This document shows positions 3,674-57,065 of a stretch of 64,000 nt of DNA, one piece after another. Below the pieces are notes generated by a model. That model searched no databases and was not told where the DNA came from. It worked only from the letters and a program-made list of their open reading frames with translations. The DNA is from Nitrosospira lacus (lineage in GTDB: Bacteria > Pseudomonadota > Gammaproteobacteria > Burkholderiales > Nitrosomonadaceae): the NCBI RefSeq assembly GCF_000355765.4, contig NZ_CP021106.3, forward strand, positions 1-64,000, in the 5' to 3' direction. The translations under genes were made by a program, and so were the position numbers. How positions within the stretch are numbered: the first letter of the stretch is position 1; the number at the start of each line of letters is the position of its first letter.

Positions 3674-5086
3674 TCAGGACAACCACTTCCTTGCCCGCCG
3701 GATGGCTGCCCTCACCTGTGCCGGTGCTGTTCCGCCAATATGACTACGACTATTTATCGAGCCCTCCAGGGTTAGTACAGCGTAGATATCGCTATCGATC
3801 AACCGCGAGAATTTTTGCAATTCCGGGAGAGACAGCGCGCTCAGGTCCCGGCCGCTCTTGTCGGCGAAGCGCACCGCTTGGGCTACCGCCTCGTGCGCTT
3901 CGCGAAAAGGCAATCCTTTTTTTGTCAGGTAGTCGGCCAGATCGGTAGCCGTGGCGTAACCACGCATTGCGGCGTTGCGCATTACCTCCTGGTTGACGCG
4001 CACGCCGGTCAGCATATCGGCGTAGATGCGCAGCGTGTCAATAAGCGTTTCCACCGTGTCAAAAAGAGGTTCCTTGTCTTCCTGGTTGTCTTTATTGTAA
4101 GCCAGCGGCTGACCTTTCATCAGCGTCAGCAAGGCAACCAGGTGCCCGTTGACGCGCCCGGTTTTGCCCCGCACCAGTTCCGGCACGTCCGGATTCTTTT
4201 TTTGCGGCATGATGGATGAGCCGGTACAGAACCGGTCGGCGAGATCAATGAAGCCAAATGATGGATTCATCCATAAAATCAATTCTTCCGATAGCCGGGA
4301 CAGATGCGTCATGATCAGCGCCGCGCCGGCACAGAACTCGATGGCAAAATCCCGGTCGGAAACCGCGTCCAGCGAATTTTCGCAAACCCCGTCAAATCCC
4401 AGTTGTTGCGCCACCGCCTTGCGATTGATGGGATAACTGGTCCCCGCCAGCGCCGCCGCGCCCAACGGCAGCTTGTTCACGCGCCTCCGGCAATCGGATA
4501 ATCGTTCGACATCGCGCTTCAGCATTTCAAAATATGCCATGAGATGATGACCGAAGACAACCGGCTGCGCCACCTGCAAATGAGTGAAACCAGGCATCAC
4601 GGTATCCACATGCCGTTCGGCGAGGTCAAGCAATGCGCGCTGCATACCCTGGATAAGCCCGATGATATCGTCTATCGCGGCACGCAGATAAAGCCGCACA
4701 TCGGTGGCGACCTGATCGTTACGTGATCGCGCGGTATGCAGCCGTTTGCCGGCATCGCCGATCAGCGTAGTGAGCCGTTTCTCGATATTGAGATGTACGT
4801 CTTCCAGTTCCAGGAGCCAGACGAATTCACCGCTGCGGATTTCGTCACGAATCAAGCCAAGGCCGGATTCGATGGCAGCCAAATCCCCCGCATCGATGAT
4901 GCCTGCGCCAGAAAGCATCCGGGCGTGAGCAAGCGATCCCTGGATATCGTATTCCGCCAGCCTGCGATCAAAACCAACCGATGCGGTATAACGCTGCACC
5001 AGTTCCGAAACCGGCTCATCGAACCGCCCCGACCAGGTGTTCCCTTTTTTTTCAGCCGATGTGCTTTTCTTTTTTGAAGTTGCCAT
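3674..5086 (-). CDS. argH: Argininosuccinate lyase
   Basis: ArgH splits argininosuccinate into arginine and fumarate, the last step of arginine synthesis. The 470 residues carry the fumarase/aspartase superfamily signature [12 protein letters not shown] near residue 290 and the [13 protein letters not shown] block near 125. A lysine-rich extension of about 15 residues ([16 protein letters not shown]) precedes the conserved TWSGRF. The start codon directly abuts a solitary family 1 terminal repeat (5087-5105), so the leader ends AGGAT followed at once by ATG. No other start fits, so initiation seems to depend on this repeat-derived sequence. Confidence 0.96.
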
Positions 5087-5105
5087 ATCCTAAATCCGGC
5101 AGTTG
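5087..5105. repeat. Family 1 terminal repeat abutting the argH start codon
   Basis: A perfect copy of the 19-base end ATCCTAAATCCGGCAGTTG. On the minus strand it reads into the argH ATG without any gap. It is separate from, and in tandem with, the similar end at 5115-5133, which begins the decayed element next to it. Confidence 0.75.
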
Positions 5106-5114
5106 CCGCTTATC

Positions 5115-5242
5115 ATCCTAAATTCGGCAGTTGATCGCATATTCTTCAGTTTAATATTATGATTTATAAATATGCTTACCTAAATCGATCTTCATCTTCT
5201 GGGCGACCGCGCCACATGGTATTCAGCCGCTGGATTCAGGCC
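5115..5242. mobile_element. Decayed family 1 element (about 128 bp)
   Basis: The left part, 5115-5133, is a terminal repeat with one change. It is followed by the sub-terminal block TTCAGTTTAATATTATGATT and by a CTTCATCTTCTGGGCGAC block. These match, in order, the right half of the copies at 10583-10958 and 14267-14514. The far end near 5224-5242 (CAGCCGCTGGATTCAGG) is a degraded opposite repeat. From 5243 to 5346 I see nothing further. Confidence 0.6.
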
Positions 5243-5346
5243 GAAGAACGAGTATAAATCAAAATAACTTTCCTTACGTCCTGCAGGATTTCCATATCGG
5301 GGGACTTTGCGGCATTCAAAATATCCATGTGACAAGGGATGGCGCA

Positions 5347-6957
5347 TTACCCATCCAGATGGGTCTGGAATACCAGTCCGGCATGCTCTCGCAGCCTATG
5401 GAACTGAATCAGCCTCCAGCTCTCCTGCGCGACACTCAGTTCCGCTCCGAATGAGGCCAGAAAGGTAGGCGCGTCCACCGCATCATAGGCCACCCGGTGC
5501 GCGTTGGTATCAATGAACCGCTTCAGTTCGCGTGGATCATCGGACGTGACCCAGCGCGCCATCTGGTACTTTGCCGAAGCGAGACGGGCATCTACGCCAT
5601 ACTCGTGCTTGAGCCGGTGCGCCACCACTTCAAACTGCAATGTGCCCACCGCACCCAACAGCAAAGCACCTCCGGCATGGGGCCGAAATACCTGGATCGC
5701 CCCCTCTTCACCCAACTGGGTAAGTCCCAATTTGAGCTGCTTGCTGCGCATTGGATCGGCAATTTCCACCGTCTGGAAGATTTCAGGTGCGAAAAATGGC
5801 AAACCGGTAAACTGCAAGCGCTCACCTTGCGTCAGTGTATCTCCCAACTGCAACGTTCCATGATTGGGAATGCCAATAATATCGCCGGAGTAGGCGATAT
5901 CAAGCAACTCGCGCCGCTGTGAGAGAAAGGATACTACGCCGTTGGTACGGATATCCTTATCGCTACGTACAACCCTGAGGTTCATTCCGCGCTCGAAGCG
6001 GCCCGAACAGATCCGCACGAAGGCGATGCGATCCCGGTGTGCGGGATTCATGTTCGCCTGAATTTTGAATACAACACCTGAAAACATCGATTCCGCAGGT
6101 TGCACCTGACGCTGTAAGGCTTGGCGCGATCCGGGTGATGGCGCAAGATCGACCAGTGCGTCAAGTACTTCGCGTACGCCAAAATTGTTGATGGCCGAGC
6201 CAAAAAATACCGGGGTCTGCTCACCGGCGAGGAAAGCCACGTGACTGAATTCTGGCGAGGCGCCACGTATCAGCTCAATTTCCTGCCGAGCCTGGGCAAC
6301 ATTCTCCGTGAAACGTAGCGCGATTTCGGGATTATCCAGGCCTTCGATAATTTCGTCCTGTTCATCCAGTCTATCCGCACCTGGGCGAAAAACGCGCATG
6401 CGGTCGCGCCGCAAGTCGAATACACCATGAAAACTGCGGCCCATACCCAGCGGCCAGGTAAAAGGTACCGCCGTCATATTCAACGTCCGTTCGATTTCGT
6501 CAATGAGGTCGAGCGGTTCCCGTACTTCACGATCCATTTTGTTCACGAAAGTGAGGATGGGCGTATTACGCGCACGGCACACTTCCAGCAGACGCAATGT
6601 CTGGGCCTCCACGCCATTGGCGGCATCGATCACCATCAACGCCGCGTCCACCGCGGTCAGCACCCGGTAGGTATCTTCGGAAAAATCCTGGTGACCCGGC
6701 GTATCCAGCAAATTGATGACGCAACCCCGGTACTCCATCTGCATCACGGAGCTGGCGACTGAAATACCCCTTTGCTTCTCGATCTCCATCCAGTCCGAGG
6801 TGGCATGACGGCTCGCTTTGCGCGCCTTGACGCTGCCGGCGATATGAATGGCGCCGGCAAACAGCAACAACTTTTCCGTCAGCGTCGTTTTACCCGCATC
6901 CGGGTGCGAAATTATGGCAAACGTGCGCCGACGCGCCACTTCCTGATCGACCGCCAT
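5347..6957 (-). CDS. prfC: Peptide chain release factor 3
   Basis: RF3 is the translational GTPase that removes RF1/RF2 from the ribosome after termination. I place the start at 6957 (MAVDQEVARRRTFAIISH), giving 536 residues, close to the family length. The open frame continues upstream, but a GAGGAA ribosome-binding site lies 6 bases before this ATG. G-domain motifs are SHPDAGKTTLTEK, DTPGHQDFSEDTYR and NKMDR. The gene begins only 10 bases after the stop of the yejF-like ATPase, so it is probably the last gene of the peptide-transport operon. Confidence 0.95.
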   Translation of the reverse strand: MAVDQEVARRRTFAIISHPDAGKTTLTEKLLLFAGAIHIAGSVKARKASRHATSDWMEIEKQRGISVASSVMQMEYRGCVINLLDTPGHQDFSEDTYRVLTAVDAALMVIDAANGVEAQTLRLLEVCRARNTPILTFVNKMDREVREPLDLIDEIERTLNMTAVPFTWPLGMGRSFHGVFDLRRDRMRVFRPGADRLDEQDEIIEGLDNPEIALRFTENVAQARQEIELIRGASPEFSHVAFLAGEQTPVFFGSAINNFGVREVLDALVDLAPSPGSRQALQRQVQPAESMFSGVVFKIQANMNPAHRDRIAFVRICSGRFERGMNLRVVRSDKDIRTNGVVSFLSQRRELLDIAYSGDIIGIPNHGTLQLGDTLTQGERLQFTGLPFFAPEIFQTVEIADPMRSKQLKLGLTQLGEEGAIQVFRPHAGGALLLGAVGTLQFEVVAHRLKHEYGVDARLASAKYQMARWVTSDDPRELKRFIDTNAHRVAYDAVDAPTFLASFGAELSVAQESWRLIQFHRLREHAGLVFQTHLDG

Positions 6958-6967
6958 CAAATATTCC

Positions 6968-9076
6968 TCATGCTGAATCTTGTTCCTGTGGGTAAAGGTA
7001 GCACCGCGCCGTGTGCGTTGGACTGAATGCGCTTGTTCCGGGGTAATGCTCCCGGCATATCGGCATGACGTGCGGACAACGAGGATGAAAGTGGCAGCCG
7101 GATGGCGGATTGGCTGGAGAAGGCAGATCTCCATGCAGGTGGATGATCTGGCGCTTTGATGCGAGATCAATGACAGGTACCGCCGACAGCAGCGCCTGAG
7201 TATAGGGATGCCTGGGATGATCCAATACTTCATCCACCCGCCCCTGTTCCACGATTCTTCCCAGATACATCACCGCCACCTCGTCGGCGACATACTCCAC
7301 CACCGAGATATTATGAGTGATGAATAGATATGCCAGTCCCAGGTTGCCCTGCAAATCCTTCAGCAGATTCAGGATCTGTGCCTGTACCGATACATCCAGC
7401 GCACTGGTGGGCTCGTCGCAAACAATCAGCCGAGGATTGACCGCCAGGGCGCGGGCAATGGCGATACGCTGGCGCTGGCCCCCGGAGAACTCGTGCGGAT
7501 AGCGCCATTTGGTCTCTGGCGGCAACCCGACACTTTCCAGCAGTGCATCCACTCTTCCTTTCTTGCCGGTGGAATGATACTCCGGATGACTTGTTGCGCT
7601 GCCGCTTTCTGCACCCAGAGCATTCATGCCTTCTTCAATGATGTCCACGATACGCATCCGCGGGTTGAGTGACGAATAGGGGTCCTGAAAGATGAGCTGA
7701 AGTTCAGCACGCATCTTCCGCAAGCGATTGCGTTCCATCCCCACGAGTTCAAGCCCGTTATAGCGCACACTGCCCGCGGATGGCGGAATCAACTGCAGAA
7801 TACCCTTGCCGGCCGTCGTCTTGCCACAGCCGGATTCTCCCACCAGCGCCAGCGTCTTGCCCTGCTGAATCGCCAGCGAGACGCCATCCACCGCCTTGAC
7901 ATATCCGGTAATACTTCTCATCAGCCCCTTATGTATCGGGAAATAAACCTTGAGACCGGTAACGGACAGTAAGCAGGAGCTGGAATCCAGTGATTCAAAA
8001 ACCAATGCCGGTTGAGGACTTGACTCCGCTGGTCTCTCAGCGTCCTGAGCTGTGGCTTTGAAGCGCTGATTCCCGAATTCCGGGCCCTGAACGCTGGGAC
8101 TGGTATCCTCGTTAAAGAGATGACATCTCACCTGGTGTCCGCCGGCCACGACGTTCCACCTCGGCGCGATCTCATGACACAGTTCCCACGCACGGTCACA
8201 TCGGTCGGCAAAACGACAGCCGGTAAATTCGCGTGACAGCGGGGGGACATTTCCGCCAATCGCCGCCAGCCGCAGTCCTCGCTTGCGCACGACCTTGCCC
8301 GGCAGGGAAGCGAATAATTTCTGCGAATAAGGATGTGCCGGCCCGCTAAAAAAATCTTCGCGAGTCGCTGTCTCTACAATTTCACCCGCGTACATGACCG
8401 CCACTCGATGCGCCATTTGCGCCGCCACCGCGAGATCGTGAGTGATGAGCAGGATCGCCATGCCATCGCGTTTCTGCAAACCGCGCATCAGATCCAGCAC
8501 CTGGGCCTGAATGGTGACGTCCAGCGCGGTAGTCGGCTCATCGGCAATGAGTAGCTCAGGCTCTCCAGCCAGCGCCATGGCAATCATCATCCGCTGCTTC
8601 ATTCCACCCGAAAACTGGAAGGGATATTCATTCATGCGGCGTGCCGCATCCGGTATACCCACCTGGTTCAATATCTTCAGTACGCGTTCTTGTACCGCCA
8701 TACCGCTTAAATTGAAATGCCGCCGCAATACCTCGCCAATCTGGTCCGCCACCGTCATTACCGGATTCAAACTTAGCATCGGCTCCTGAAATATCATGCT
8801 GATGCGCTTCCCGCGGATATCGCGCATAGCGGCTTCCGGCAACAGAAGCAGATCCTCCTCGCCGATCCTGACGGACCCCGCCACAATCTCTCCCGCATCT
8901 GGCAACAGCCGCATAACCGAGAGGGCCGTCATGGATTTTCCACAACCGGACTCCCCCAGTAATGCAAAGGTCTCGCCCCTCAGGATTCGCAGCGTAAGCC
9001 CATCTACCGCCCATATCGGTGCCTCTCCTGTGTGGAGGACGGTCTCGAGATTATCAATCTGTAACAGGGGATTCAT
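6968..9076 (-). CDS. yejF: Peptide ABC transporter, two fused ATPase domains (YejF type)
   Basis: This cytoplasmic protein of 702 residues has two complete ABC ATPase domains in one chain, like E. coli YejF. Domain 1 has Walker A GESGCGKSMTA near residue 40, signature FSGGMKQR and Walker B LLIADEPTT. Domain 2 has GESGCGKTTAGK, FSGGQRQRIAIARAL and LIVCDEPTSALD. Each is followed by an oligopeptide-transporter C-terminal motif with several Cys (CRFADRCDRA; CHFHPRCPHVMPIC). It overlaps the upstream permease by 4 bases. It powers import of oligopeptides by the two membrane proteins encoded upstream. Confidence 0.93.
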   Translation of the reverse strand: MNPLLQIDNLETVLHTGEAPIWAVDGLTLRILRGETFALLGESGCGKSMTALSVMRLLPDAGEIVAGSVRIGEEDLLLLPEAAMRDIRGKRISMIFQEPMLSLNPVMTVADQIGEVLRRHFNLSGMAVQERVLKILNQVGIPDAARRMNEYPFQFSGGMKQRMMIAMALAGEPELLIADEPTTALDVTIQAQVLDLMRGLQKRDGMAILLITHDLAVAAQMAHRVAVMYAGEIVETATREDFFSGPAHPYSQKLFASLPGKVVRKRGLRLAAIGGNVPPLSREFTGCRFADRCDRAWELCHEIAPRWNVVAGGHQVRCHLFNEDTSPSVQGPEFGNQRFKATAQDAERPAESSPQPALVFESLDSSSCLLSVTGLKVYFPIHKGLMRSITGYVKAVDGVSLAIQQGKTLALVGESGCGKTTAGKGILQLIPPSAGSVRYNGLELVGMERNRLRKMRAELQLIFQDPYSSLNPRMRIVDIIEEGMNALGAESGSATSHPEYHSTGKKGRVDALLESVGLPPETKWRYPHEFSGGQRQRIAIARALAVNPRLIVCDEPTSALDVSVQAQILNLLKDLQGNLGLAYLFITHNISVVEYVADEVAVMYLGRIVEQGRVDEVLDHPRHPYTQALLSAVPVIDLASKRQIIHLHGDLPSPANPPSGCHFHPRCPHVMPICREHYPGTSAFSPTHTARCYLYPQEQDSA

Positions 9077-10581
9077 GGCTGGGAGGAACCTTCAACCGTA
9101 GAGGAAACGGATTGGGGCTCCGATTTCTTCCCACGTCCCCGGCGACGCGATATTACCGCCTTTGCCGGCCACGTTTTCGCTCGTGGATCAAAGGCATTCT
9201 GTACCGCATCAGCAAAAAGATTGGCGCTCAATACCAGCGCGAACATGAAACTGAAGGCCGCAAGCAATGCCCACCACACCATCGGTTCACGCGCCATTTC
9301 CAGTCGCGCGGCGTTGATCATGGTGCCAAAACTGATCATGGAAGGGTCGACGCCGACGCCCACATAAGACAGTACAGCCTCCGCCAGAACCAATCCGCTG
9401 AAATCCATCACGGTGGCAATCAGCACGATATGCATCACATTGGGAAGGATGTGGCGGCTGATGATACGCCAATGGGAGACGCCGAAGGCATGGGCCGCCT
9501 GAATATATTCCATCTCTCGCAGCTTCAGGGTTTCACCGCGCAGCAACCGGCATAAGCCGGTCCAGCTGGTGACTCCGAGTATGATGCAAAGAAACAGCAG
9601 GCGCAGGTCGGCGCGCGCGGCAATGGTATCGAACAACTCGGGGCGTGTTTCTATATAGACCTGCATCATCAATACCGTGGCTGCAATCAGCAGGACGCTC
9701 GGGATTGAGCTCAGCGTGGTGTACAGGTATTGAATGACATCATCCACCCAGCCACGAAAATAGCCAGCCATAATGCCCAGGAGCAGCGCGAACGGCAGCA
9801 TCATCAGCGTGGTGAGCGTTCCAATCACCAAACCCGTGCGGATGCTTTTGAGCGACTGATAAAATACGTCCTGCCCCACCTTATCGGTGCCAAATATATG
9901 GTAACTGCCGGACAATGCCAGCGCAGCACCGCAGAACAGTAATATGAACGCAAGCGTGATGTATACCGCGTTCCATGGAACCAGGGTGGTGCCGCGCCAG
10001 ACGGCGGAAAACACTGACGAGAATTTTTCACCGCTACGGCGCGCCAGCAGCCTGGTCAAGGAAACCACCACGATACCCCATAGGAGAAGGCCCAAACCTC
10101 CACCCACTCCTGCCTTCCGGGCCACATCGGCGGCAAGCTCAGACTCGGGATCCTGCAAATGCGCGCCGCCGAATTGCAACCGGGGAAATTCCCGCACCTG
10201 CCGGCCGTCCGGAAGCTCTGTTGTTTCCCTGGCATAAAGAAATGCGGCAAAGGGCGCGGAATAAGTTTTCTCCACGCGCGTCCGCAAAGGGGCTGCAATC
10301 ACATCAAGCAGGCTTAGCACTTCCACGCCGTATGCTTTTTCGCCGTTGCCGCTGTGACTATTCTCGATGGCGGGACGCATATGTACCGTATCGAGTAATC
10401 CCACGGCAATAAAGAATACCAGAACCGTAAGCGCCGCCATTCCGCTCGCACTGTGCCCCACACGCCGCCATGGCGCCAGAAGATACTCGTTGCGCCGCAC
10501 GTGCCAGACAAAGACGATTATCACCGCCACCAGCAGGTAGACGAGTGCGTCTGTCCAGAGAATTACCGGTTTGAAGGACAT
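9073..10581 (-). CDS. yejE: Peptide ABC transporter permease (YejE/DppC type)
   Basis: Inner-membrane permease of 502 residues. Two hydrophobic segments lie in the first 60 residues, then a long periplasmic stretch, and the conserved six-helix BPD_transp_1 domain occupies the C-terminal half. The coupling motif is seen in EMEYIQAAHAFGVSHWRII. It is longer than DppC but like YejE-type proteins. The start codon follows a family 1 terminal repeat with a single base between, so the leader ends AGGATA and then ATG. The element upstream separates this gene from its natural partner yejB. Confidence 0.9.
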   Translation of the reverse strand: MSFKPVILWTDALVYLLVAVIIVFVWHVRRNEYLLAPWRRVGHSASGMAALTVLVFFIAVGLLDTVHMRPAIENSHSGNGEKAYGVEVLSLLDVIAAPLRTRVEKTYSAPFAAFLYARETTELPDGRQVREFPRLQFGGAHLQDPESELAADVARKAGVGGGLGLLLWGIVVVSLTRLLARRSGEKFSSVFSAVWRGTTLVPWNAVYITLAFILLFCGAALALSGSYHIFGTDKVGQDVFYQSLKSIRTGLVIGTLTTLMMLPFALLLGIMAGYFRGWVDDVIQYLYTTLSSIPSVLLIAATVLMMQVYIETRPELFDTIAARADLRLLFLCIILGVTSWTGLCRLLRGETLKLREMEYIQAAHAFGVSHWRIISRHILPNVMHIVLIATVMDFSGLVLAEAVLSYVGVGVDPSMISFGTMINAARLEMAREPMVWWALLAAFSFMFALVLSANLFADAVQNAFDPRAKTWPAKAVISRRRGRGKKSEPQSVSSTVEGSSQP

Positions 10582-10582
10582 T

Positions 10583-10958
10583 ATCCTAAATCCGGCGGTT
10601 GGACGGGATGAAGCCTGCGGTTTTTAGGGTACAGGGTAAGGCGCAACGATGCGGAATGCGACCGCGCAGGGCGGAGCGGTTCCTTCCGAAGGAAGATGCG
10701 ACCCCATAGCGGGATGTAGGGCGCCCAACGAGAGCGCGGGCATCCCCTACGCTGCCCGATCCCCGCTTCACGGGGCCCCTCGTGCGACGCTTCGGGGGGC
10801 CATTCCATTCCAAGGAGTTGCAACGCAGCCCTGCGTCGCAAAAATCGTGTAATCTGCCCCGTAGTGAACTCACCCAGGTGAAGATTGATTGAGACGAAAC
10901 AGCTTTGTAAATCATAATATTAAACTGAAAAATGGCGATCAACTGCCAGATTTAGGAT
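10583..10958. mobile_element. Family 1 MITE-like element, long copy (376 bp), between yejB and yejE
   Basis: Terminal inverted repeats lie at 10583-10602 and 10940-10958 and differ at few bases. Inside the left end is the block GCGGTTTTTAGGGTACAGGG, then GCGCAACGATGCGGAATG. The right half has TTGCAACGCAGCCCTGCGTC, GAACTCACCCAGGTGAAG and TAAATCATAATATTAAACTG. The same blocks occur in the same order in the 14267-14514 copy. This copy has about 140 extra GC-rich bases in the middle (about 10670-10805). No transposase gene is present. Confidence 0.8.
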
Positions 10959-10968
10959 TATAGAGTCA

Positions 10969-14170: not shown

Positions 14171-14266
14171 TGATGCGATAGTGTAGCGTAAATATCAGAA
14201 ACGGAAATGACGCTTCAACTCCGGCGACTTTCATGATTCTACAAGCAGGAGAGACTTGAAGCTATA

Positions 14267-14514
14267 ATCCCAATCCAGCAGTTGACCATTCATTTCTCAC
14301 TCATTTTTCAGCTGGGCACCATGATCCACAAAGTTTTTTGCGCCATTTGGCCTTCATCTTTTTGGTGAGTTCGCTAGTGAGTGGGTTGCATGATTTTTGC
14401 GGCAGAGGGCTGCGTTGCAATTCTTGGAATGGAATAACCATTCCGCGTCATTGTGCCTTGCCCTGCACCTCAGAAACCATGCACTCTCCTTCGTCCAACT
14501 GCCGGATTTAGGAT
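14267..14514. mobile_element. Family 1 MITE-like element (248 bp) upstream of fabI
   Basis: Terminal repeats are at 14267-14284 (ATCCCAATCCAGCAGTTG) and 14496-14514. Read on the minus strand, the interior has TGCAGGGCAAGGCACAATG, GCGGAATGG, ATTCCATTCC, TTGCAACGCAGCCCT, GCAAAAATCATGCAA and GAACTCACCAAAAAGATGAA. This matches the 10583-10958 copy block by block without its central insert. It fills most of the gap between yejA and fabI, with its left end facing fabI. Confidence 0.8.
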
Positions 14515-15438: not shown

Positions 15439-17328
15439 TTATTTCTTCTCCAGGCTCTCATTCCTGACCGTCACGTCGTACTGCTTTCTAACCGCGGCAA
15501 GATAAGATGTGAGCTCCTCCTGGGCATGTACCTGCTGCAATTGCCGGGCAAAGGTCTTGCGTTCGGATACCTCCGCTGGAACCGGTTCAATGACACGGCT
15601 GATGCGGATTAAGGTAAAACCGCCCTGGGAATTCTCCATACCGGCATAGGATGGAAGTCTCGTCGCTTCAGCTTTGAAAACCGTACGCAGGGTTTCGTTA
15701 TCCAGACCTTGGGGCTCTTTCCTGGAAACTTGCTGGGTTATGCCCCACGCAAGGATTCCACCCTTTCCTTCCTGCAGCTGCGCAAGTTTTTCCCTGCCTG
15801 ATTTTTGGGCCGCTTCCGCAGCTTCCTTACGGGCTACCCGCTCGCTAATTTTATCCCGCAACACCGTAATGGAAGGCGTCGTCTCCGGCCTATGTTCCAG
15901 AACCCTGGCTGAAACAAGCGTATTGGGCACCACTTCCACCGCTTCGGTGTTACGCTTGTTCTTGAGCGCATCTTCCGAAAATATCGCCTGCAGCAATCTT
16001 CCATTAGTGAAATAGGGGGGTTCACCTGCGCTTCTGCCAATCCAATCACTCTGCTGAACGCGCAGGCTGAACTTCTCCGCGGCGGGCCGCAGGCTGTCAC
16101 TCTGCTCATATACCATGTTGCTGAAGCCTTCGGCCGTTTCACCAAAAATTTTCCCGGCTTTTTGCTTCTTCAGCTCCTGCTCGACCTGGTTCTTTACTTC
16201 ATCAAAATGAACAAGTTTTACAGGTTTTATCGCAGAGAGCTTGATGATATGGAAACCGTGATCTGTTTCGACCAGATTACTGATCTCATCCGGTTTCATC
16301 TGAAAAACCGCGTCTTCGAACGCCTTGACCATCATATTGCGTGCGAAAAATCCGAGGTCACCGCCATTGATTGCCGAACCCGGATCTTGGGAATGCTGCT
16401 TGGCAAGTTCCGCAAAGCTTTGCGGGGCCTGCCTTACCTGAACAAGCAATTGCTCGGCCTTGGCGCGCGCCGCGGCTTTCTCCACATCGGATGCCGTAGC
16501 GGGGACCGTTATCAGTATGTGGCTCGCGCGGCGCTCCTCGGGCTGCTCAAACTCACTGCGATGTTCCTCAAAATACTTTATTGCTTCATCAGCGGTCACC
16601 TGCAAGTCTTTAGTCAAATCGTCCAGAGATAGCACAAGGTATTCAACACGTACTTGCTCCGGCACCCGAAACTCGGCTTGGTGGCTATCGTAATATGATT
16701 TGATGGCGGCATCATCGGGTTTCATCTGCGACAGGAATTGCTCCGGTTGTATTTGAATCAGGCTGATTTCGCGCTTCTCGCTGCCCAACCGCATAATTCT
16801 TTCCGCCACCGAGACAGGAACGAAACCATTCCCGGTGTATGCGTCCGTCAATTGCTGACGCATCATTTCCTGGCGCACACGCCCTTCAAATGTTCGTGGA
16901 TTCATTCCCTGACCACGCAGCAGCTCTTCATAACGCTGCTTGGAGAATTTACCATCCTCCTGAAACGCGGAGATATCCTGTATGACCAATATCAATTGCG
17001 AATCCGGCACGGTCAATCCAAGGCGCGCAGCCTCATGCTTCAGCAGCCGCTGCTGGATCAGTCCCTCCAATACCGCGGACCGCAGTTCCGGGTTATCCAG
17101 CATCGCATCGTTAAAATTTTCTCCCATGGTCGCCCGCATGCTTTCCTGCTGATTGCGCAACGCCTGCTCAAATTCCTGACGCGGTATCTTCTCGCCAGCC
17201 GCCAATGCGAGGTAGTCTTTGCCGTCGCCACTGTTATACGACTCGATTCCCCAGAATAGAAATGGTAATGTGGCGAGCGCCAGGATCACCTGGACGATAC
17301 GTTTTTTCCTGTGAACAAAATCAAACAT
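15439..17328 (-). CDS. ppiD: Periplasmic folding chaperone / peptidyl-prolyl isomerase PpiD
   Basis: PpiD is an inner-membrane-anchored chaperone that meets proteins leaving the SecYEG channel. It has 629 residues: a short cytoplasmic start (MFDFVHRKKRIVQ), one membrane helix at about 12-28, a SurA-like N-terminal chaperone region, and a PpiC/parvulin domain at about 270-365 (ASHILITVPATASDVEKA to DHGFHIIKLSAI). It follows hupB and the tRNAs, the usual lon-hupB-ppiD order. The ATG is one base away from a family 1 terminal repeat, so the leader reads AGGCTA then ATG; no other ribosome-binding site is present. Confidence 0.95.
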   Translation of the reverse strand: MFDFVHRKKRIVQVILALATLPFLFWGIESYNSGDGKDYLALAAGEKIPRQEFEQALRNQQESMRATMGENFNDAMLDNPELRSAVLEGLIQQRLLKHEAARLGLTVPDSQLILVIQDISAFQEDGKFSKQRYEELLRGQGMNPRTFEGRVRQEMMRQQLTDAYTGNGFVPVSVAERIMRLGSEKREISLIQIQPEQFLSQMKPDDAAIKSYYDSHQAEFRVPEQVRVEYLVLSLDDLTKDLQVTADEAIKYFEEHRSEFEQPEERRASHILITVPATASDVEKAAARAKAEQLLVQVRQAPQSFAELAKQHSQDPGSAINGGDLGFFARNMMVKAFEDAVFQMKPDEISNLVETDHGFHIIKLSAIKPVKLVHFDEVKNQVEQELKKQKAGKIFGETAEGFSNMVYEQSDSLRPAAEKFSLRVQQSDWIGRSAGEPPYFTNGRLLQAIFSEDALKNKRNTEAVEVVPNTLVSARVLEHRPETTPSITVLRDKISERVARKEAAEAAQKSGREKLAQLQEGKGGILAWGITQQVSRKEPQGLDNETLRTVFKAEATRLPSYAGMENSQGGFTLIRISRVIEPVPAEVSERKTFARQLQQVHAQEELTSYLAAVRKQYDVTVRNESLEKK

Positions 17329-17329: not shown

Positions 17330-17504
17330 AGCCTAAATCCGACAGTTGGGCAGGAAGGAATGTGCGGTTTTTGGGGTGCAGGGCAAGTCGCAACGCAATC
17401 ATGCGTCGTATAATCAAAAGGATGAAGGCTGGGTGATGAGAAGAGTCTTTATGGATCATAGCTGCCGGACTAAAAAATAAACGGCCAATGGCCAGATTCA
17501 GGAT
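17330..17504. mobile_element. Family 1 MITE-like element (175 bp) between the tRNA terminator and ppiD
   Basis: Ends are 17330-17348 (AGCCTAAATCCGACAGTTG) and 17486-17504 (CAATGGCCAGATTCAGGAT). The interior keeps GTGCGGTTTTTGGGGTGCAG, GGCAAGTCGCAACG, GATGAAGGC and TTTATGGATCAT. It lacks the GGAATGG core of the longer copies. Its left end runs into the ppiD start codon. Confidence 0.75.
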
Positions 17505-24343: not shown

Positions 24344-25090
24344 CTAGCAAAATAGGGTCTGGCCTCTGACAGCGTTACTGTCCGGGCCCATCAAATATAG
24401 ATAACCAGGCATCAGATCCTCCGGTGGACGCAAATCCTGCTTGACCTCACCGGGATGAGTCCTCGTCCGCTGGGGCGTGTGCACCGGCCCCGGAATTATC
24501 ACATTGACACGCAGGTTCGGCAGCATTTCCCATTCCTGTGCCTGAATTTTCGCCAGCACCTCCAGTCCCGCCTTGGCCACCGCAAATCCGCCCCAATAGG
24601 CCGCGGGATCATGACCATGCGTTTCCGAGGTCATTATCACGCTTGCATCCGGCGACGCTTTCAGCAGTGGCAGACAGGCGCGTGTCAGCGCAAAGGGCGC
24701 AACCAGATTGACGCGTAGCATCGATAGCCATTGTTCCAGTGTCTGATTCTCTAGTGGAGTCAGACTGAATATCAATGCCGCATTGTGCAGGATGCCATCC
24801 AGTTTGCCCAACTGCAGCTTGATGGCATGAGCAATCGCCTGAAAATCCTTGTCTCCCGCCTTTTCCAGGTCAAGCGGAAAAATTGACGGCTGCACCCCGC
24901 CTCCGGCTTCAATTTCATCATACACACGTTCCAGCTTCTCAACCCGGCGCCCATGCAGAATTACGGTAGCACCGTGAGCGGCATAGGTTAACGCTGCAAT
25001 ACGGCCTATGCCCTGGCCTGCACCAGTAACGAGAATCACACGATCCTTGAGCAAATCAGGCGACGCGCGGTAATTTTTAAAATTATTCAT
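24344..25090 (-). CDS. Short-chain dehydrogenase, YciK type, with catalytic Tyr replaced by Phe
   Basis: A classical SDR of 248 residues. Its N-terminus (DLLKDRVILVTGAGQGIGRIA) and core resemble E. coli YciK. The NAD(P)-binding TGxxxGxG motif is intact, as is the NAG-type motif in ILHNAALI and a Ser in IMTSETHG. The YxxxK catalytic pair reads FAVAK: Phe169 (codon TTT) stands where Tyr is expected, with Lys173 kept. The ATG shares its first two bases with the end of a solitary family 1 repeat. The function of YciK-type enzymes is not well defined; this one may be inactive as a normal SDR reductase. Confidence 0.85.
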   Translation of the reverse strand: MNNFKNYRASPDLLKDRVILVTGAGQGIGRIAALTYAAHGATVILHGRRVEKLERVYDEIEAGGGVQPSIFPLDLEKAGDKDFQAIAHAIKLQLGKLDGILHNAALIFSLTPLENQTLEQWLSMLRVNLVAPFALTRACLPLLKASPDASVIMTSETHGHDPAAYWGGFAVAKAGLEVLAKIQAQEWEMLPNLRVNVIIPGPVHTPQRTRTHPGEVKQDLRPPEDLMPGYLYLMGPDSNAVRGQTLFC

Positions 25091-25108
25091 CCTGAATCCG
25101 GTAGCTGG
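25089..25108. repeat. Solitary family 1 terminal repeat overlapping the yciK-like start codon
   Basis: ATCCTGAATCCGGTAGCTGG is the family 1 end with three changes. On the minus strand its last two bases, AT, are the first two of the start codon. No second end or core blocks are found in the 30 bases to hpnD. Confidence 0.6.
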
Positions 25109-47674: not shown

Positions 47675-47749
47675 CAAACTAAAGATAAGTTATTGGCGCT
47701 CACCATGACCCATTCCCTACCTGCGCCGGCTTGACACTAAGGCTCGACG

Positions 47750-47932: not shown

Positions 47933-48111
47933 CACACTGGGTGGTACTTGAACTTTCTCGTCTATAGTCTATAAAAATACACAGGTGGGTTTCTTACGTC
48001 AGACGTACTGTCGAAATGATGAAAACACTCATCGGACGACAAATGGAAACCCCATTTCAGCGGCCAGGATCTGTCACGGTCACTGGGTTTCACTGGTGAT
48101 CAGATTCATGG

Positions 48112-48335
48112 TGCTAAGAACCGAAATTGGTACACTGATGAGCATCACAATTCTTATGGAAGCTGATATCGGAGAGACTCGTTTCAATGCTCTGCTCCCT
48201 GATATAAATATCCCAAGTGAGCAGGAGGTATCCATCCGGACCCAGGATATTACAAACCCGCACAAATTCTGTGTCGTTCCGATGAGTGTACAGGGGAATT
48301 CTTATACTGCGACACGCCTGAACGGCTGCACCTAG
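48112..48335 (+). CDS. Possible small unknown protein
   Basis: A short frame (MVLRTEIGTLMSITILMEAD, then GETRFNALLPDIN and NPHKFCVVPMSVQG) ends at a TAG at 48333-48335. It has no recognisable domain and no strong ribosome-binding site. It lies in the otherwise gene-free 47675-48397 stretch. The amino-acid mix is protein-like but I cannot support a function. Confidence 0.2.
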
Positions 48336-48397
48336 CGGATATTCTTCTAGACCGGAACAGGCAAAACTGGGAGCCCTGAGGGAGAATAAGCCAAGCC

Positions 48398-49759: not shown

Positions 49760-49760
49760 T

Positions 49761-49901
49761 AGTGTGCTTGTAATTGAATAAAAGCGATGAGTTTTTGTGC
49801 AGGCTACGCGTAAAATCAAGCGATATATCGCGAGGATTTGCAACGACGCATGACACGGAAAGATGCGTTTTTAGATTCAATCAATTGCAAAGCACACCAC
49901 T
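49761..49901. mobile_element. Possible third small inverted-repeat element (about 141 bp)
   Basis: AGTGTGCTTGTAATTGAAT (49761-49779) is mirrored by ATTCAATCAATTGCAAAGC then ACACCACT (49875-49901). It begins one base after the stop of the cytochrome-porin gene. The middle has the palindrome GCGATATATCGC. No second copy is seen in the window. From 49902 to 50199 I see no gene. Confidence 0.4.
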
Positions 49902-50199
49902 GGATCCAGAGATTGAATCTGGCGCCTGCGATGATTGCATAAAAATCATTATATTGGGATCTTTCGCTTTCGGTGGATGCAGCAAGGTACGAGTTGGAGA
50001 TTGGGTGCTGGTACGGGGCGAGCTTTCAAGCTACCGATTAATATAGTATTTCTGTCGACCTTCTGACTGCTTGAAAAACTTCGCTAACAGGCGATCATTT
50101 TTGCTGTCAGCGTCGCATCATGTCGCTCTAGAATCCACGCGGATTTTCAGACGTCAGTGATTGCACGGGAAACAAGAAAACTTTCTATCAGATCATTCT

Positions 50200-51690
50200 C
50201 TATTCGATCTTACTGTCCAACCCACCCTCCGCAATCTCCGCCGCCCGCAGCAGTGCCTTGGCCTTGTTCTGAGTCTCGATCCATTCGCTTTGCGGCACGG
50301 AATCGGCCACGATGCCCGCGCCGGCCTGTATATGCAGCTTACCGTCTTTGATGACACCGGTGCGAATAGCGATGGCCAGATCCATATCGCCATCGAATCC
50401 CAGGTAACCTACCGCGCCAGCGTAGATACCGCGCTTGGACACTTCCAGCTCATCGATGATTTCCATCGCCCGCACTTTCGGGGCGCCGCTCACGGTACCC
50501 GCAGGGAAAGTGGCGCGCAGTACATCCATCGCATTCAAGCCGGGTTTGAGCTTGCCATCCACATTGGAAACAATGTGCATGACATGGGAATAATGCTCGA
50601 TCTGCATGTTCTCCGTGACCTTGACCGTTCCGGTCTGCGCGACGCGGCCGACATCATTACGCCCGAGATCCATCAGCATCAAATGTTCCGCACGCTCCTT
50701 CGGATCGGCCAGCAGATCGTCCGCCAGCGTGGCATCTTCCTGAATGGTCTTACCGCGCGGGCGGGTGCCGGCAATGGGACGTACGGTCACGGTGCCGCTT
50801 TCCAGTCGGACCAGGATTTCCGGCGACGCGCCGATCACGTGAAACTCGCCAAAGTGATAATAAAACATGTACGGAGAGGGATTGAGACTGCGCAGCGCGC
50901 GATAAAGCGCCAGCGGCGACGCGCCATACGGCTTGCTGGTGCGCTGCGATAAAACCACCTGCATGATGTCGCCATCAAAAATATAGCGCTTGGCGCGCTC
51001 CACCGCTTCAATATAACCTGTTTCACTGAATTCCGAGATGGCCTCGGCCGGTTTGCTGGGCGTTTCAAGCGGAATTTCCACCGGTTCACGGAGATTGACG
51101 AGCAACTCCTTCAAGCGTTTTTTTGCAGCTTTATACGCTTCCGTTGCTTCCGTTGGACCTGCGTCCCCAGGCGCTGCATACACGATGAGATAGAGTTTGC
51201 CGGAAAGATTATCCACCACCGCCAGCTCCTCAGACAGGAGTAACAGCATATCGGGCGTATTGAGTGTGTCGGGGCAGGCATGACCGGCCAGTTTACGCTC
51301 GATATATCGCACGGCATCGTAGGCAAAATAGCCCACGAGGCCGCCGCAGAAACGGGGTAAACCGGGGCATGGCGCGGCTTTGAAGCGAGACAGGTAGGAT
51401 TCCACGAAAGCCAGCGGATCTTCCACCTCGGATTCCCGCGTTCCCGCACCATTGATGATCCTGACAAGACCGCCCCGCGCCTCTATGCGAGTCACGGCGG
51501 GCAGGCCGATAAAGGAATAACGTCCGAAGCGCTCGCCACCCTGTACCGATTCCAATAAATACGAGTACGGTTGGTTGGCAAGCTTGAGATAAACCGACAG
51601 CGGGGTATCGAGATCGGCAAACGTTTCCAGCACTACCGGGATGCGGTTATAGCCTTGCGCCACAAGGTTATTGAATTCAGCTTCGGTCAT
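50200..51690 (-). CDS. trpE: Anthranilate synthase component I
   Basis: TrpE makes anthranilate from chorismate, the first step of tryptophan synthesis. From the ATG at 51690 ([24 protein letters not shown] upstream) it is 496 residues. The N-terminal feedback-binding region contains [18 protein letters not shown], and the chorismate-binding core contains [62 protein letters not shown] and [15 protein letters not shown]. Usually trpG, trpD and trpC follow in betaproteobacteria; here the cytochrome-porin gene lies downstream in the opposite direction. Confidence 0.97.
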
Positions 51691-51827
51691 GATGTGACTC
51701 CACAAGAAAACAGGAAGGAAAGAAAGTGCGGTAGCGTGTGAGTGCTAGGTCCGCCAGCGATCGAGGCCAGGACGCTAGGGACGCCAGGCATTTATCGCGT
51801 ATTCCTCGATTCCGGTGTTTTCGGGGA

Positions 51828-52556
51828 TCATGACAATTTCTGAATTAATTTTGTAGCATCGTATACGGACGTAACGATGGCATCGCAATTCAGTTCGCGC
51901 ACGTCGCGCCCCTCATTGTAGCCATAGGGTACGCAAAAGACATGACAACCCGCCGCACGCGCCGCTTCGGCGTCATTGAGGGAGTCGCCGATCAGCAGCA
52001 TTTCACGGGGTAGAATGCCGAAATGCTTGCAGGCATGCAGGAGGGGCATCGGATCAGGCTTCTTTTTGGGGAGGCTGTCGCCTGACAGGACGATATCAAA
52101 ATAATCCAGCAAGCCGGTGGCACGAAGTAGTGGCAAGGTAAACGCCTCAGCCTTGTTGGTTATGCAGGCCAGGCGAAAATCCGCTTCCAGCAAGGCGTTC
52201 AATCCCTCTATTACGCCTGGATAGGGCCGAGTACTAACGCACAATGTTTTCGCGTAATCGCGCTCGTAGAGCGGCATCGCTTTGTCGAATAACTCAACAT
52301 CGGGCTCATCATCGAGGCTGCCGGTAAGCGAGCGCTTCACCAGCTTCTGTATGCCCTTGCCAATGTAGGATTGGATAGTCTCCAGCGGGAGCTCGGCCCT
52401 CCCCAGCTCCCGTAACATCATATTGGCCGCCGCGGCCAGATCGCCCGCCGTATCGAGAAGTGTACCATCCAGATCGATCATCACGGCCTTGACCGACAGT
52501 GGATATTCGCTGCCGACCACAACAGTGTCCCCAAGCCGGGAAGCGCTTTTGTTCAC
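51828..52556 (-). CDS. gph: Phosphoglycolate phosphatase
   Basis: A HAD-family phosphatase of 242 residues that removes phosphate from 2-phosphoglycolate, a product of DNA repair and of Rubisco oxygenation. The catalytic motif MIDLDGTLLDTAGDLAAA is near residue 27. Motif II is ACITNKAEA, and GDSLNDAEAARAAGC holds the C-terminal Asp pair. It sits between rpe and trpE, as in many proteobacteria. Confidence 0.92.
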   Translation of the reverse strand: MNKSASRLGDTVVVGSEYPLSVKAVMIDLDGTLLDTAGDLAAAANMMLRELGRAELPLETIQSYIGKGIQKLVKRSLTGSLDDEPDVELFDKAMPLYERDYAKTLCVSTRPYPGVIEGLNALLEADFRLACITNKAEAFTLPLLRATGLLDYFDIVLSGDSLPKKKPDPMPLLHACKHFGILPREMLLIGDSLNDAEAARAAGCHVFCVPYGYNEGRDVRELNCDAIVTSVYDATKLIQKLS

Positions 52557-52651
52557 GTAAAGTTATCCCCTAACATTAATAAAGTCTCGTATTCCGCGAC
52601 GCGCTCGCAAATCAGGATTTCTGGAGACGTCGTTTCGTTCGCAAACTGAAA

Positions 52652-53335
52652 TCAAGCGTTCGCCAATTCCGCCCGCAGCGCTGCTACGACGCTATCATAG
52701 CGGTGCGGATCGCTGTCCTTGCCCGCACCATAAATGGCGGACCCGGCAACAAAGGTATCGGCTCCCGCGCGGGCGATCTCGGCGATGTTATCCACTTTTA
52801 CGCCACCATCAATCTCCAGCATGATATCTTTGCCCGTTGCATCAATGCGTTTGCGCACGGCTTTTAATTTTTCCAGTGCTTCAGGGATGAATTTCTGTCC
52901 ACCGAAGCCTGGGTTTACCGACATGATCAACACCAGATCCAGCTTATCGAGTACATGGTCGAGATAATATAAAGGCGTCGCCGGGTTGAATACCAGCCCT
53001 GCCTTGCAGCCCTGTTCCTTGATCAGCCCGATGGTGCGGTCGATATGCCTGGATGCTTCGGGATGAAAGGAAATAATATTGGCTCCGGCCTTGGCAAAAT
53101 CCGGAACAATGCGGTCGACCGGCTCGACCATCAAGTGCACATCGATAACTGCCTGGGTCAGGGGACGAATAGCCTCACACACGAGCGGACCGATGGTGAG
53201 ATTAGGCACATAGTGATTATCCATCACATCAAAATGAATGATGTCCGCGCCTGAATCGATGACGGCGGTTATTTCCTCACCCAGCTTGGCGAAATTGGCG
53301 GAAAGGATGCTCGGAGCGATGCGATAATTAGCCAT
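52652..53335 (-). CDS. rpe: Ribulose-phosphate 3-epimerase
   Basis: Rpe interconverts ribulose-5-phosphate and xylulose-5-phosphate in the pentose phosphate and Calvin pathways. From the ATG at 53335 ([20 protein letters not shown], preceded by AAGGA) it has 227 residues. Motifs are [37 protein letters not shown] and [10 protein letters not shown], with metal ligands in the TIM barrel. It heads rpe-gph-trpE and diverges from apaG. Confidence 0.97.
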
Positions 53336-53432
53336 GAAGGCGTCCTTATAATCAAAAAGCGCCATTTTAACCGCAAATGGTCTTTCGCGCTAACAGCTTC
53401 ATGCCGCAGCGATCGTTCTAACTTTTATTATT

Positions 53433-53600
53433 TTGAGTCCGGCAGCTGAACAGTATGGAGTGCCCGGTTTTTTGGGACTCAGGTCAATGCGTAGCGGCGC
53501 GAGATGATACGTCAACTCCAGGGTGATGTAATGCAACCCCGCTGCTACAAAACTGCGCAATCCGTCGGGTAGACCTCGTCATGAAAGGCGGAGATCGAAT
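53433..53600. mobile_element. Degenerate family 1 element between rpe and apaG
   Basis: TTGAGTCCGGCAGCTGAACAG matches the left end, and GCCCGGTTTTTTGGGACTCA, ATGCAACCCCGCTGC and GTCATGAAAGGCGGAG match internal blocks of the family in the same order. Every block is degraded and the right end cannot be fixed. Confidence 0.45.
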
Positions 53601-53734
53601 TTTGCAAAATCCTTTTTTTGATCAGGTCACTATACTAAGAGATTGCCGTCGGCGACTGGACTTGGGAGCATGCGGCACCATATTTTGTAGCCACCACCCT
53701 TGCCGTGACTCGAAAAATAGTGTGCAATGCGGGG

Positions 53735-54118
53735 ATGGCCGATAGTAAAAAATACGAAATTATTGTAACGGTTCACACTACCTACCTCCCGGAACAGTCG
53801 GATGAAGCGCTCGACCGTTACGTTTTTGCGTACACCATCTCGCTTGCCAACACAGGTACAGTTTCGGCACAGCTCATCAGCCGCCACTGGATCATTGCGG
53901 ATGGGACTGGCGGTGTGCAAGAGGTACGGGGCCTGGGAGTGGTCGGTGAGCAGCCGTTGCTAAAACCCGGAGACAATTTCGAATATACAAGTGGTACCGC
54001 CATTTCCACACCGGTTGGGTCGATGAAAGGTAGCTATCAAATGGTGGCTGAAGACGGCCTGCGCTTCGATGCAACCATCCCTGAATTCATCTTGAGCGTG
54101 CCCAGGGTATTGCACTAA
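53735..54118 (+). CDS. apaG: ApaG protein
   Basis: ApaG is a small beta-sandwich domain protein (same fold as fibronectin type III), 127 residues from the ATG at 53735 (MADSKKYEIIVTVHTTYLPE). It carries VFAYTISLANTGTVSAQLIS, SRHWIIADGTGGVQEVRG and the Gly-rich EYTSGTAISTPVGSMKGSYQ. Its physiological role is not well defined; it is linked to diadenosine tetraphosphate metabolism and cobalt/magnesium tolerance. The divergent neighbour rpe is typical. Confidence 0.92.
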   Translation: MADSKKYEIIVTVHTTYLPEQSDEALDRYVFAYTISLANTGTVSAQLISRHWIIADGTGGVQEVRGLGVVGEQPLLKPGDNFEYTSGTAISTPVGSMKGSYQMVAEDGLRFDATIPEFILSVPRVLH

Positions 54119-54244
54119 GGAATCGCTGCACGCTTTTCTGCGGAAATGGAGGATCCGTCCGGAGGTTCGTTGGCTCCTGCTCTGCCGAGTTCGGTGTTGT
54201 TTTTTTTCATTCCTTAAGCCCATCAGGCTGATTGCTGCTACTGC

Positions 54245-55645
54245 TCAACCATATTTCTTCCTTCCGACCATGCGGCGGCGATGGGCACGTTTTGCTTCCG
54301 CTTCGCTGAGAGGTGCTGCACCTTTTTCGGCATAGGGATTGTGACCCGACCGGAACACAACTCTCAATGGCGTACCTTCCAGCTGAAAGGCCTCGCGGAA
54401 GGTGTTTTCGAGATAACGCTGATAGGTTTCGGGAACCTTATCCAGAGCACTGCCATGGATTACGATCAATGGCGGGTTGGAGCCGCCCTGATGGGCATAG
54501 CGCAGTTTGGGGCGTGACAGGCCAGCACGCGGAGGCTGCTGCTTCTCTACCGCCGCCAGCAGGGTGCGGGTAAGCCGGGGGGTGGATAGATTCGCCATCG
54601 CGGCCGCATAAGCGGCATCAATCGACGGAAGCAATCCTTTCATGCCACTGCCTCGCAATGCCGAGATATAGTGGAGTTTCGCGAAATTCAGCAAGAAAGA
54701 GAGTTTGCGGGCGATATCGTTCTTGATGGTATCGCGCTGATAATTATCCAGGCCATCCCATTTGTTAACCGCCACCACCAGTGCGCGCCCCGTTTCCAGG
54801 ATGAACCCGGCGATGTGGGCATCCTGATCGGAAATTTCGTTTCCCGCGTCCAGTACCAGGACCACCACGTTGGCGTCTTCCACCGACTGCAAGGTCTTTA
54901 CCACCGAGAATTTTTCCACGGTTTCAAATACCTTGCCACGCCGGCGCAAACCGGCGGTATCGATCAGCGTGTACGGACGGCCGTTGCGATGAAAGTCAAT
55001 ATAGATACTGTCGCGGGTGGTACCCGGCTGATCAAACGCGATGACGCGTTCCTCGCCCAGCAGTGCATTCACCAGCGTGGATTTGCCAACATTGGGGCGT
55101 CCCACGATGGCAATTTTTGGATGCCTGTCTTCTTTTTCTTCTGCTTGCGGCAGAGGGAAATCCGCTAGCGCCAACTCCACCAGCTCATTCACATTGTCGC
55201 CGTGCGCGGCGGAGATCGCGCAGGGTTCCCCCAGGCCCAGTTGGTGAAATTCTGCAGTAACGACGGAGGACGCCATGCCTTCGGTTTTATTCACCACCAG
55301 CATGATTTTTCGTCCGGTCTTGCGCAGTTGCTCCGCAATTACCTTATCATGCGGCGCCAAACCGGTTCTGCCATCGACGATGAACAGCACCCTGTCCGCT
55401 TCGTCCACCGCTTGTCGAGTCTGCTTGGCCATCTCATGCAAAATGCCTTCCTTCACCATTGGCTCGAAGCCACCGGTGTCGACCACCAGATAAGGCTTAT
55501 CGCCCAGCCTGCCATGGCCGTAATGGCGATCCCGCGTCAATCCGGGAATATCCGCCACAATTGCGTCACGGCTGCGGGTCAGGCGGTTAAAAAGTGTTGA
55601 TTTGCCGACATTGGGCCGCCCGACCAGTACGAGGGTGGGTTTCAT
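54245..55645 (-). CDS. der: Ribosome-assembly GTPase Der
   Basis: Der has two GTPase domains in tandem and aids 50S ribosome assembly. The 466 residues show G1 motifs [13 protein letters not shown] near residue 8 and [19 protein letters not shown] near 184, DTGGFEP and [11 protein letters not shown], and NKTEG and NKWDG. A KH-like domain and a basic tail ([15 protein letters not shown]) finish it. It converges with apaG and follows bamB. Confidence 0.97.
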
Positions 55646-55741
55646 GGCTTCTGGTTCTTATGTGGAGACCGCCAATCCTTCTGCCCGGAAGGATAACAGC
55701 AAGCACTTTCTAAAATAAATGAATTTGCCGAATTTTCTCGG

Positions 55742-56947
55742 TTACATGCTGAACGCATAAAGCCCACCTTTCATGGTCTGCACCACGAAGCCATTAGGCA
55801 GAGAGACGGGGCGGGCAGTGATGGCGCTCCCGTCAGTGGCAGAGCGCGCGACAATACTACCGGTGTCATTCCTGATGAGATTTACATAGCCCAGAGAATC
55901 ACCCACCACCACATGCGTGCCCTGGATGAGGGGGGGAGATAACTGGACGCCGCTGAGCAAATCCTGTTTCCAGATACTGGTACCATTTTTTTTATTGTAA
56001 GCCACTACTGCGCCTTGAGCATCGCTCACATATATGTAATCATCATTCATGGCAAGACCTGCGCTGCTCGACGCGTCTCGCGCCCAAATCTGATTTCCGT
56101 TGGCGATTTCAAAGCAGGCAACACGCCCCTGATAGGCTACAGCGCATATCTGTTGTTCGTCAGCCACCGGCAGACTGGCGACATCGGTTATTCGCTCCAG
56201 TTCTGTCGCTCCCCGCGGCCGCGATACGACCGCTTCCCAGACGACCCCGCCGTTGGCCAGATTTATCGCCACCAGCTTTCCGCCTGCAAATCCGGCAAAT
56301 ACCATGCCTCGCGAGATCAGCACACCAGCAAAGCTCCGAACCGTCAAGGGAGGAGTTGCACCCTGATATATCCACTTACGTTTGCCGCTGCCGGCATCCA
56401 GACTGAAAATCCGGCCATCTCCAGTGCGAACCACTACCGTGCCGCTCTCCGCTCGCGGGGGACTTAATACCTCGGTGGATACCTGGGCCGTCCACAGGGC
56501 TTTACCGTCTTTGCTGCCATATGTCAGAACCTCACCTTTGAAGGTTCCAAGCAGCAACATTCCGTCACCTGCACCTACGCCGCCCGACAGATTATGCTTG
56601 GTATTGACACTTCCCGCTTGTTTGCCTGTGGTGGGATCAAAACGCACAAGGAATCCATTCAGGCCCGCGGCATAAACGGCGCCGTTCTCGAATACCGGCA
56701 TAAACCCCATCGCTTTACTTTCTTCGATGCCGTTCTGCCACAATAGACGCACTTCCGGAACTGTCTTTAATTGGGCAGCCTGTTCCGGGCTCATCTCAAA
56801 GGTCTCGCCGCCAAGGAGCCCGCCGCTGATACCCGCCACATCGATATCCGACAGGTCGCGTGCGAGGTCGCGTGCCATATCGACCACACTTACGCATCCG
56901 GAAAACGCCAGCAGCGGCACCAGCAGCAGGATATGCCGCCGAATCAT
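55742..56947 (-). CDS. bamB: Outer membrane assembly lipoprotein BamB
   Basis: BamB is a lipoprotein beta-propeller of the BAM complex. The 401 residues have a lipobox (RRHILLLVPLLAFSGC, Cys18) and repeated PQQ-like units (LWTAQVSTEVLSPPRAESGT, KRKWIYQGATPPLTVRSFAG, IWARDASSSAGLAMNDDYIY). The ATG shares its first two bases with the end of a family 1 element, so the leader reads GGATTTAGG then ATG. It lies between yfgM and der in the standard hisS-yfgM-bamB-der order. Confidence 0.95.
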   Translation of the reverse strand: MIRRHILLLVPLLAFSGCVSVVDMARDLARDLSDIDVAGISGGLLGGETFEMSPEQAAQLKTVPEVRLLWQNGIEESKAMGFMPVFENGAVYAAGLNGFLVRFDPTTGKQAGSVNTKHNLSGGVGAGDGMLLLGTFKGEVLTYGSKDGKALWTAQVSTEVLSPPRAESGTVVVRTGDGRIFSLDAGSGKRKWIYQGATPPLTVRSFAGVLISRGMVFAGFAGGKLVAINLANGGVVWEAVVSRPRGATELERITDVASLPVADEQQICAVAYQGRVACFEIANGNQIWARDASSSAGLAMNDDYIYVSDAQGAVVAYNKKNGTSIWKQDLLSGVQLSPPLIQGTHVVVGDSLGYVNLIRNDTGSIVARSATDGSAITARPVSLPNGFVVQTMKGGLYAFSM

Positions 56948-57065
56948 CCTAAATCCGGCAGTTGTAGCGAGCTCACCAGAAAGGTGAAGGTCAAATATGG
57001 AAAAGATTCATTATGGATCATGATATTAAACAAAGAAATGAACGATCAACCGCCGGATTCAGGAT
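56946..57065. mobile_element. Family 1 MITE-like element, short copy (120 bp) between yfgM and bamB
   Basis: Perfect left end ATCCTAAATCCGGCAGTTG (56946-56964) and right end CAACCGCCGGATTCAGGAT (57047-57065). Between them only the right-half blocks remain: GAGCTCACCAGAAAGGTGAA and TTATGGATCATGATATTAAA. The left half is deleted. Confidence 0.75.

Follow-up and report, generated by a model that had tools for sequence, protein, structure and literature searches.

The Correia elements of Neisseria are abundant small MITE-like elements (miniature inverted-repeat transposable elements, MITEs) that lie near genes and carry promoters. They use a TA target, and we know of no start-codon register for them. 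A 3-bp TNA target is the mark of IS1031-type IS5 elements.

MITEAba12 of Acinetobacter is about 113 bp long and has terminal inverted repeats (TIRs), no gene and a 9-bp target duplication (PMC6382973). According to the parts of that paper used here, MITEAba12 copies in three records provide the four initial residues (MQQS) of a neighboring gene, and an outward promoter is active, with transcripts in one direction. The QMITEs of Coxiella are small TIR elements that overlap genes, and the portion of the source consulted says that they leave the 5' ends of known genes unaffected (PMC5896051). The original prediction for the locus described below had known of no comparable case. MITEAba12 provides single cases of a MITE-lent start; an excess of MITEs at start codons was not reported in the literature searched (most subscription journals were outside its scope), nor was any paper found there that pairs Nitrosospira with the term “miniature inverted-repeat transposable”.

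The window is the whole analyzed stretch of DNA, the first 64,000 nucleotides of contig NZ_CP021106.3 of Nitrosospira lacus. The original prediction placed five repeat ends at the starts of argH, yejE, ppiD, yciK and bamB, all facing the gene, and these positions were confirmed. The features concerned are the following.

3674..5086, minus strand: argH
5087..5105, minus strand: MITE end with a head-like inner sequence, directly before the argH ATG (5086), no base between
5115..5133, minus strand: second tandem copy of the argH end, with one mismatch
9073..10581, minus strand: oligopeptide-type ABC permease gene (yejE in the original prediction)
10583-10601, minus strand: yejE-facing end, one base from the ATG (10581)
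10584..10957, minus strand: 374-bp two-ended MITE in the yejB-yejE gap, exact duplication TAA (minus strand); the yejB stop is 11 bp off and the tail faces the yejE ATG
14267..14513, plus strand: 247-bp MITE upstream of a fabI-like gene (ATG 14550), over 30 bp away from that ATG and not start-adjacent
15439..17328, minus strand: gene of a ppiD-like peptidylprolyl isomerase
17330-17348, minus strand: ppiD-facing end, one base from the ATG (17328)
17331..17503, minus strand: 173-bp MITE in the TAATG of ppiD; an empty site is seen in Nitrosospira sp. NpAV
24344..25090, minus strand: gene of a YciK family oxidoreductase
25089..25107, minus strand: solitary end at yciK, whose ATG (25090) is composed of the end's last A and the target TG, an overlap of AT
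55742..56947, minus strand: bamB
56946-56964, minus strand: bamB-facing end, overlapping the ATG (56947) by AT
56947..57064, minus strand: 118-bp two-ended MITE at bamB, exact duplication TGA (minus strand); its last A plus TG is the bamB ATG

The repeat is a MITE family of Nitrosospira, gene-less, with short inverted repeats and a duplicated 3-bp TNA target. It is identified as such by paired outward-pointing ends that bound short gene-less elements and by the 3-base duplication. The elements are multicopy, with 120 end matches at up to three mismatches in the host genome (G000). They span 87-391 bp in 48 of its 49 end pairs (the remaining pair, of 589 bp, is doubtful), and the TIRs of the 49 two-ended copies are 18-19 bp long. 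The 3-bp duplication is exact in 26 of these pairs, 25 times in the form TNA, and in 40/49, 17/27 and 13/18 two-ended elements of three congeners, always as TNA; the target logo is WTNAW. The two inner ends differ: the head is AAATGAGCGGT and the tail is CTTCACCCCGTC or GTGAGTTCGCTA. Read outward, the head end (e.g., at L022 and L072) holds a nine-codon frame from ATGAGCGGT, which stops on the target if this is TAA or TGA and then overlaps the ATG of the gene. Of 61 genomes, 26 contain the end sequence (18 of the 23 within Nitrosospira), with at least 10 matches in 12 of them, and it also occurs in another genus of the same family (28 matches in G026).

The family shares its 3-bp TNA target with the IS1031-type IS5 elements. 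No parent insertion sequence with the same TIRs was found among the transposase loci scanned, i.e., five with PF01609 in the host genome and 30 with PF13340 in 26 genomes, and one genome (G007) has 21 PF13340 matches against a single end match. Seven wide end pairs of the host genome, read by eye, contain no evident transposase. The family does not belong to MITEAba12, which carries the TIR and 9-bp duplication of ISAba12. An unrelated insertion sequence of 1272 bp with CACTGCTGTCCCACAA ends is identical at three loci of the host genome (L141, 746919-750548; L143, 1810262-1813891; L144, 1909448-1913077). Its transposase domain gives equal-score matches at five places, and ACCCAAGCC is repeated on both sides of it in the flanks of L141.

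Gene starts were taken from a simple home-made gene caller based on codon usage, and an end was regarded as start-adjacent if a called start lay at -3..+5 from the first target base. The 188 host ends come from 150 places among the matches listed for three patterns (120, 146 and 168 hits) and from their surroundings; minus-strand places at about 1.3-3.0 Mb seem under-represented among the matches listed for two of the patterns, and the place 2906546 was left out of the count. The congeners counted were G006 (65 of 112 hits), G005 (45 loci of 139 hits) and G004 (24 loci of 74 hits), with 11 overlapping loci of the latter two dropped.

The start adjacency of the MITE ends is real and exceeds chance. 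Among the matches listed, 29 of the 188 host ends have a start at the joint, 11 of them at -1 and 12 at +2; with at most two mismatches, 26 of 155 do. The genome-wide peak that the original prediction called for thus exists. Against a control of intergenic TNA sites weighted by the target logo (4.6%), the host excess is 3.65-fold (p 1.2e-8); an unweighted control (2.9%) gives 5.7-fold and a window-only control (6.4%) 2.6-fold. The congeners show the same among the matches listed, weakly in G006 (7/105 ends, 2.4-fold, p 0.028) and G005 (6/79, 2.5-fold, p 0.035) and at 5.8-fold in G004 (9/40, p 2e-5). All these p values treat ends as independent, and shared insertions make them too small; some insertions may be common to several genomes (e.g., pyk in G000 and G004), and the ends are therefore not fully independent. 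Elements with an exact duplication, pooled, give 23/192 ends against 6.7 expected (p 3e-7); taken alone, they show no significant excess in G006 (p 0.07) and G005 (p 0.09). The host genome is also enriched at +6..+15 (12/155 among the matches listed, 4.3-fold), so exact rebuilding of the frame is not the whole cause; the corresponding ratio is 2.4-fold in G006 and about 1 in G005 and G004.

Among the matches listed, 23 of the 29 host start-adjacent ends fall into two registers. Insertion in the -1 register is into A|TGA: TGA persists in the left copy, and the last A of the element makes an in-frame ATG with the duplicated TG. The duplication is exact in thirteen two-ended elements of this kind; 11 of them have an A before the left copy, so that the old ATG is still visible. 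In the other two, L350 and L340 of G004, this base is G or T, and a former GTG or TTG start may have become ATG through the insertion. The +2 register uses TNATG as its target, with the duplicated A as the A of the ATG. Of the 36 start-adjacent elements with two ends, 7 have the called stop of the preceding gene ending flush with the left copy; the target copies are identical in L031, L203, L350 and L356 and differ by one base in L047, L110 and L335. With that stop at the left copy and an ATG at the joint, both genes remain whole.

The crude gene calls raise the question of whether these starts are genuine. The whole effect could be an artefact of the calls or of the control, given the home-made caller and a control fraction that ranges from 2.9% to 6.4%. 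An ORF-length count that depends little on the caller gives a similar ratio: an ORF of 100 codons or more starts at the joint of 53 of 366 TNA ends (14.5%) and at 262 of 6894 control sites (3.8%), where the position of control sites outside coding DNA is still set via gene calls. Profiles and relatives add evidence for the starts. NCBIfam models were run on 40 of the 51 proteins with a start-adjacent end, covering all 29 from the host and 11 of the other 22. Four proteins had no match; matches to many others start among the first few residues, and at residue 1-4 in GlcF, HemY, RNase G, pyruvate kinase, FabZ, LepA, AccA, CysG, PurB, GspF, Map and SecD. Profiles and relatives together support starts including those of fabZ, lepA, pyk, accA, frr and map, and an artefact is in our opinion highly improbable.

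In element-free relatives, the start of argH, pyk, ppiD, yejE and yciK is unchanged, which makes the insertion the later event. In five of the six genes examined the starts are thus older than the elements, and the element did not create them. The exception is bamB, whose N-terminus is longer in relatives. The host clade (G000, G012 and G015) has the insertion inside the N-terminus, so that the protein now starts at the element joint and is shortened; in G004 another element end lies at the gene's own, more upstream start. BamB of Nitrosospira (loci L152-L174) has a highly variable N-terminal extension before the lipoprotein signal, and its length varies among the genomes.

The idea that the element supplies the leader held well: the leader is physically made up of the element end, which also contributes to the ATG in the A|TGA register. 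The proposed ribosome-binding site fared worse. The AGGA said to lie 0-4 bases from the ATG is, where present, overlapped by the ATG at its last A or 1-2 bases off, and the ppiD end reads AGGCT instead; the GGA does lie before the ATG, at 6-9 rather than 6-10 bases. The median anti-Shine-Dalgarno energy is -3.3 for 27 element-led starts vs -2.9 for 187 other genes (p 0.28), which does not point to a notable ribosome-binding site, and at bamB the copies common to G012 and G015 read AAGA and CCGGCTT. As many as 139 of those 187 genes have no Shine-Dalgarno sequence of 4-5 bases at the spacing tested (with crude starts). By eye, the leaders of pyk, ppiD and yejE in relatives have no clear one, and argH of G002 has AGGA. 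A strong Shine-Dalgarno sequence thus seems to be neither lost nor gained with the element. The suggestion that solitary ends are the retained useful part was not borne out, as the partner is absent in 12 of 29 start-adjacent ends vs 78 of 159 others (of the 17 paired start-adjacent ends, the argH pair is doubtful).

The ends at starts are oriented unequally: of 51 in the four genomes, 34 are tails, 12 heads and 5 unclassified (p 0.0016). The tail to head ratio is 22:21 at +16..60 and 55:40 at +61..400, and away from starts heads outnumber tails (125:62). When insertions simulated at 70 of 83 eligible sites are folded, the start region is predicted to be slightly more open behind a tail than behind a head (0.382 vs 0.343 for short elements, 0.463 vs 0.392 for long ones), and native start regions are predicted to be more open still (0.494). 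Conservation is not clearly higher in start-facing ends than in their partners (25 vs 38 mismatches in 36 pairs, p 0.14).

Given the observed target, registers, excess, orientation bias and prior starts, the best reading, to which we lean with slightly more belief than doubt, is junction-preserving insertion with a serviceable leader, filtered by selection. A MITE with a WTNAW target and a 3-bp TNA duplication would enter gene junctions with neither reading frame broken. At A|TGA the terminal A and the duplicated TG would restore the ATG, at TNATG the duplicated A would start it, and where TNA is the stop of the preceding gene the left copy would preserve this stop. The element end, mostly the tail, would then act as a new leader that presumably works. 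Many Nitrosospira leaders seem to have no strong Shine-Dalgarno sequence, and an element leader is probably of about average quality; start-adjacent insertions would therefore be tolerated more often than those at other intergenic targets, and would accumulate. That selection rather than insertion preference makes the excess is what we infer. The tail bias bears on this point: since one TIR is common to both ends, it argues, if indirectly, for a filter after insertion.

A transposase that favors some trait of start regions beyond WTNAW, such as open DNA or the state of transcription or translation, with neutrality afterwards, would also produce an excess. It would fit the excess in exact-duplication, hence probably younger, elements, its extension to +15 in the host genome, and seemingly repeated hits at or near the start of two or three genes. 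The bamB insertions of G000 and G004 lie at different sites and seem separate; the pyk elements at the start in the same genomes also seem separate but may be shared; and a permease start carries head-facing elements in G000 (L018) and G005 (L378) that differ in target base and in size and sequence, which may mean that one start codon was hit twice. A tail bias that is present at starts and absent at +16..60, although the TIR is common to both ends, speaks against such a preference. AT-rich targeting was rejected: the AT fraction of the flanks is 0.527 at 127 far ends vs 0.536 at 1650 control sites, i.e., no different. We regard it as unlikely that insertion preference makes the excess. Positive selection of copies whose promoter and leader benefit the gene would explain the tail bias as well, and would be in line with the active outward promoter of MITEAba12 in the part of the report used here (PMC6382973). 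The bamB and yej copies carry matches resembling sigma70 promoters that read from head to tail, and the yej copy has one reversed match too. Yet the best head-to-tail promoter scores are close to those of shuffled sequences (7.4 vs 7.1 in 25 short copies, p 0.11; 7.75 vs 7.5 in 20 long copies, p 0.22; 4 of the 49 elements, whose orientation is unclear, were excluded), the Shine-Dalgarno strength is average, and some starts have a solitary end with no further part of the element. This domestication therefore appears quite improbable. An internal promoter as a conserved function was likewise discarded: it is not clearly above shuffles, though single copies score. A bolder reading, in which the ends are shaped to rebuild starts and stops and to be a portable translation-initiation leader, and the element has start codons and operon junctions as its preferred home, repeatedly replacing housekeeping leaders and perhaps turning GTG or TTG into ATG (L350, L340), is speculative and rather doubtful.

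The IS1031-type IS5 elements are alike in the 3-bp TNA target; no parent with the TIRs of the MITE was found where searched. Like the Nitrosospira MITE, MITEAba12 is small, TIR-bounded and gene-less and can lend a gene its start. Its TIR is different, and its duplication is 9 bp rather than 3 bp. In the MITEAba12 fusions the ATG is read from the TIR, whereas in Nitrosospira it is rebuilt at the joint. The part of the MITEAba12 report considered here presents three single fusions and no start-codon excess (PMC6382973); the Nitrosospira MITE shows a genome-wide one. Four genomes yield 51 observed leader swaps, of which some may be shared; those checked have element-free relatives, and the set allows a test of how far a bacterial leader can change. 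The swaps suggest how a 3-bp duplication can let a transposon enter packed operons with the frames unbroken, and housekeeping genes seem to survive an insertion expected to be harmful. Single start codons lent by mobile elements were known before; an excess of insertions exactly at start codons, many of them of housekeeping genes, in several genomes of one genus did not turn up in the literature searched.
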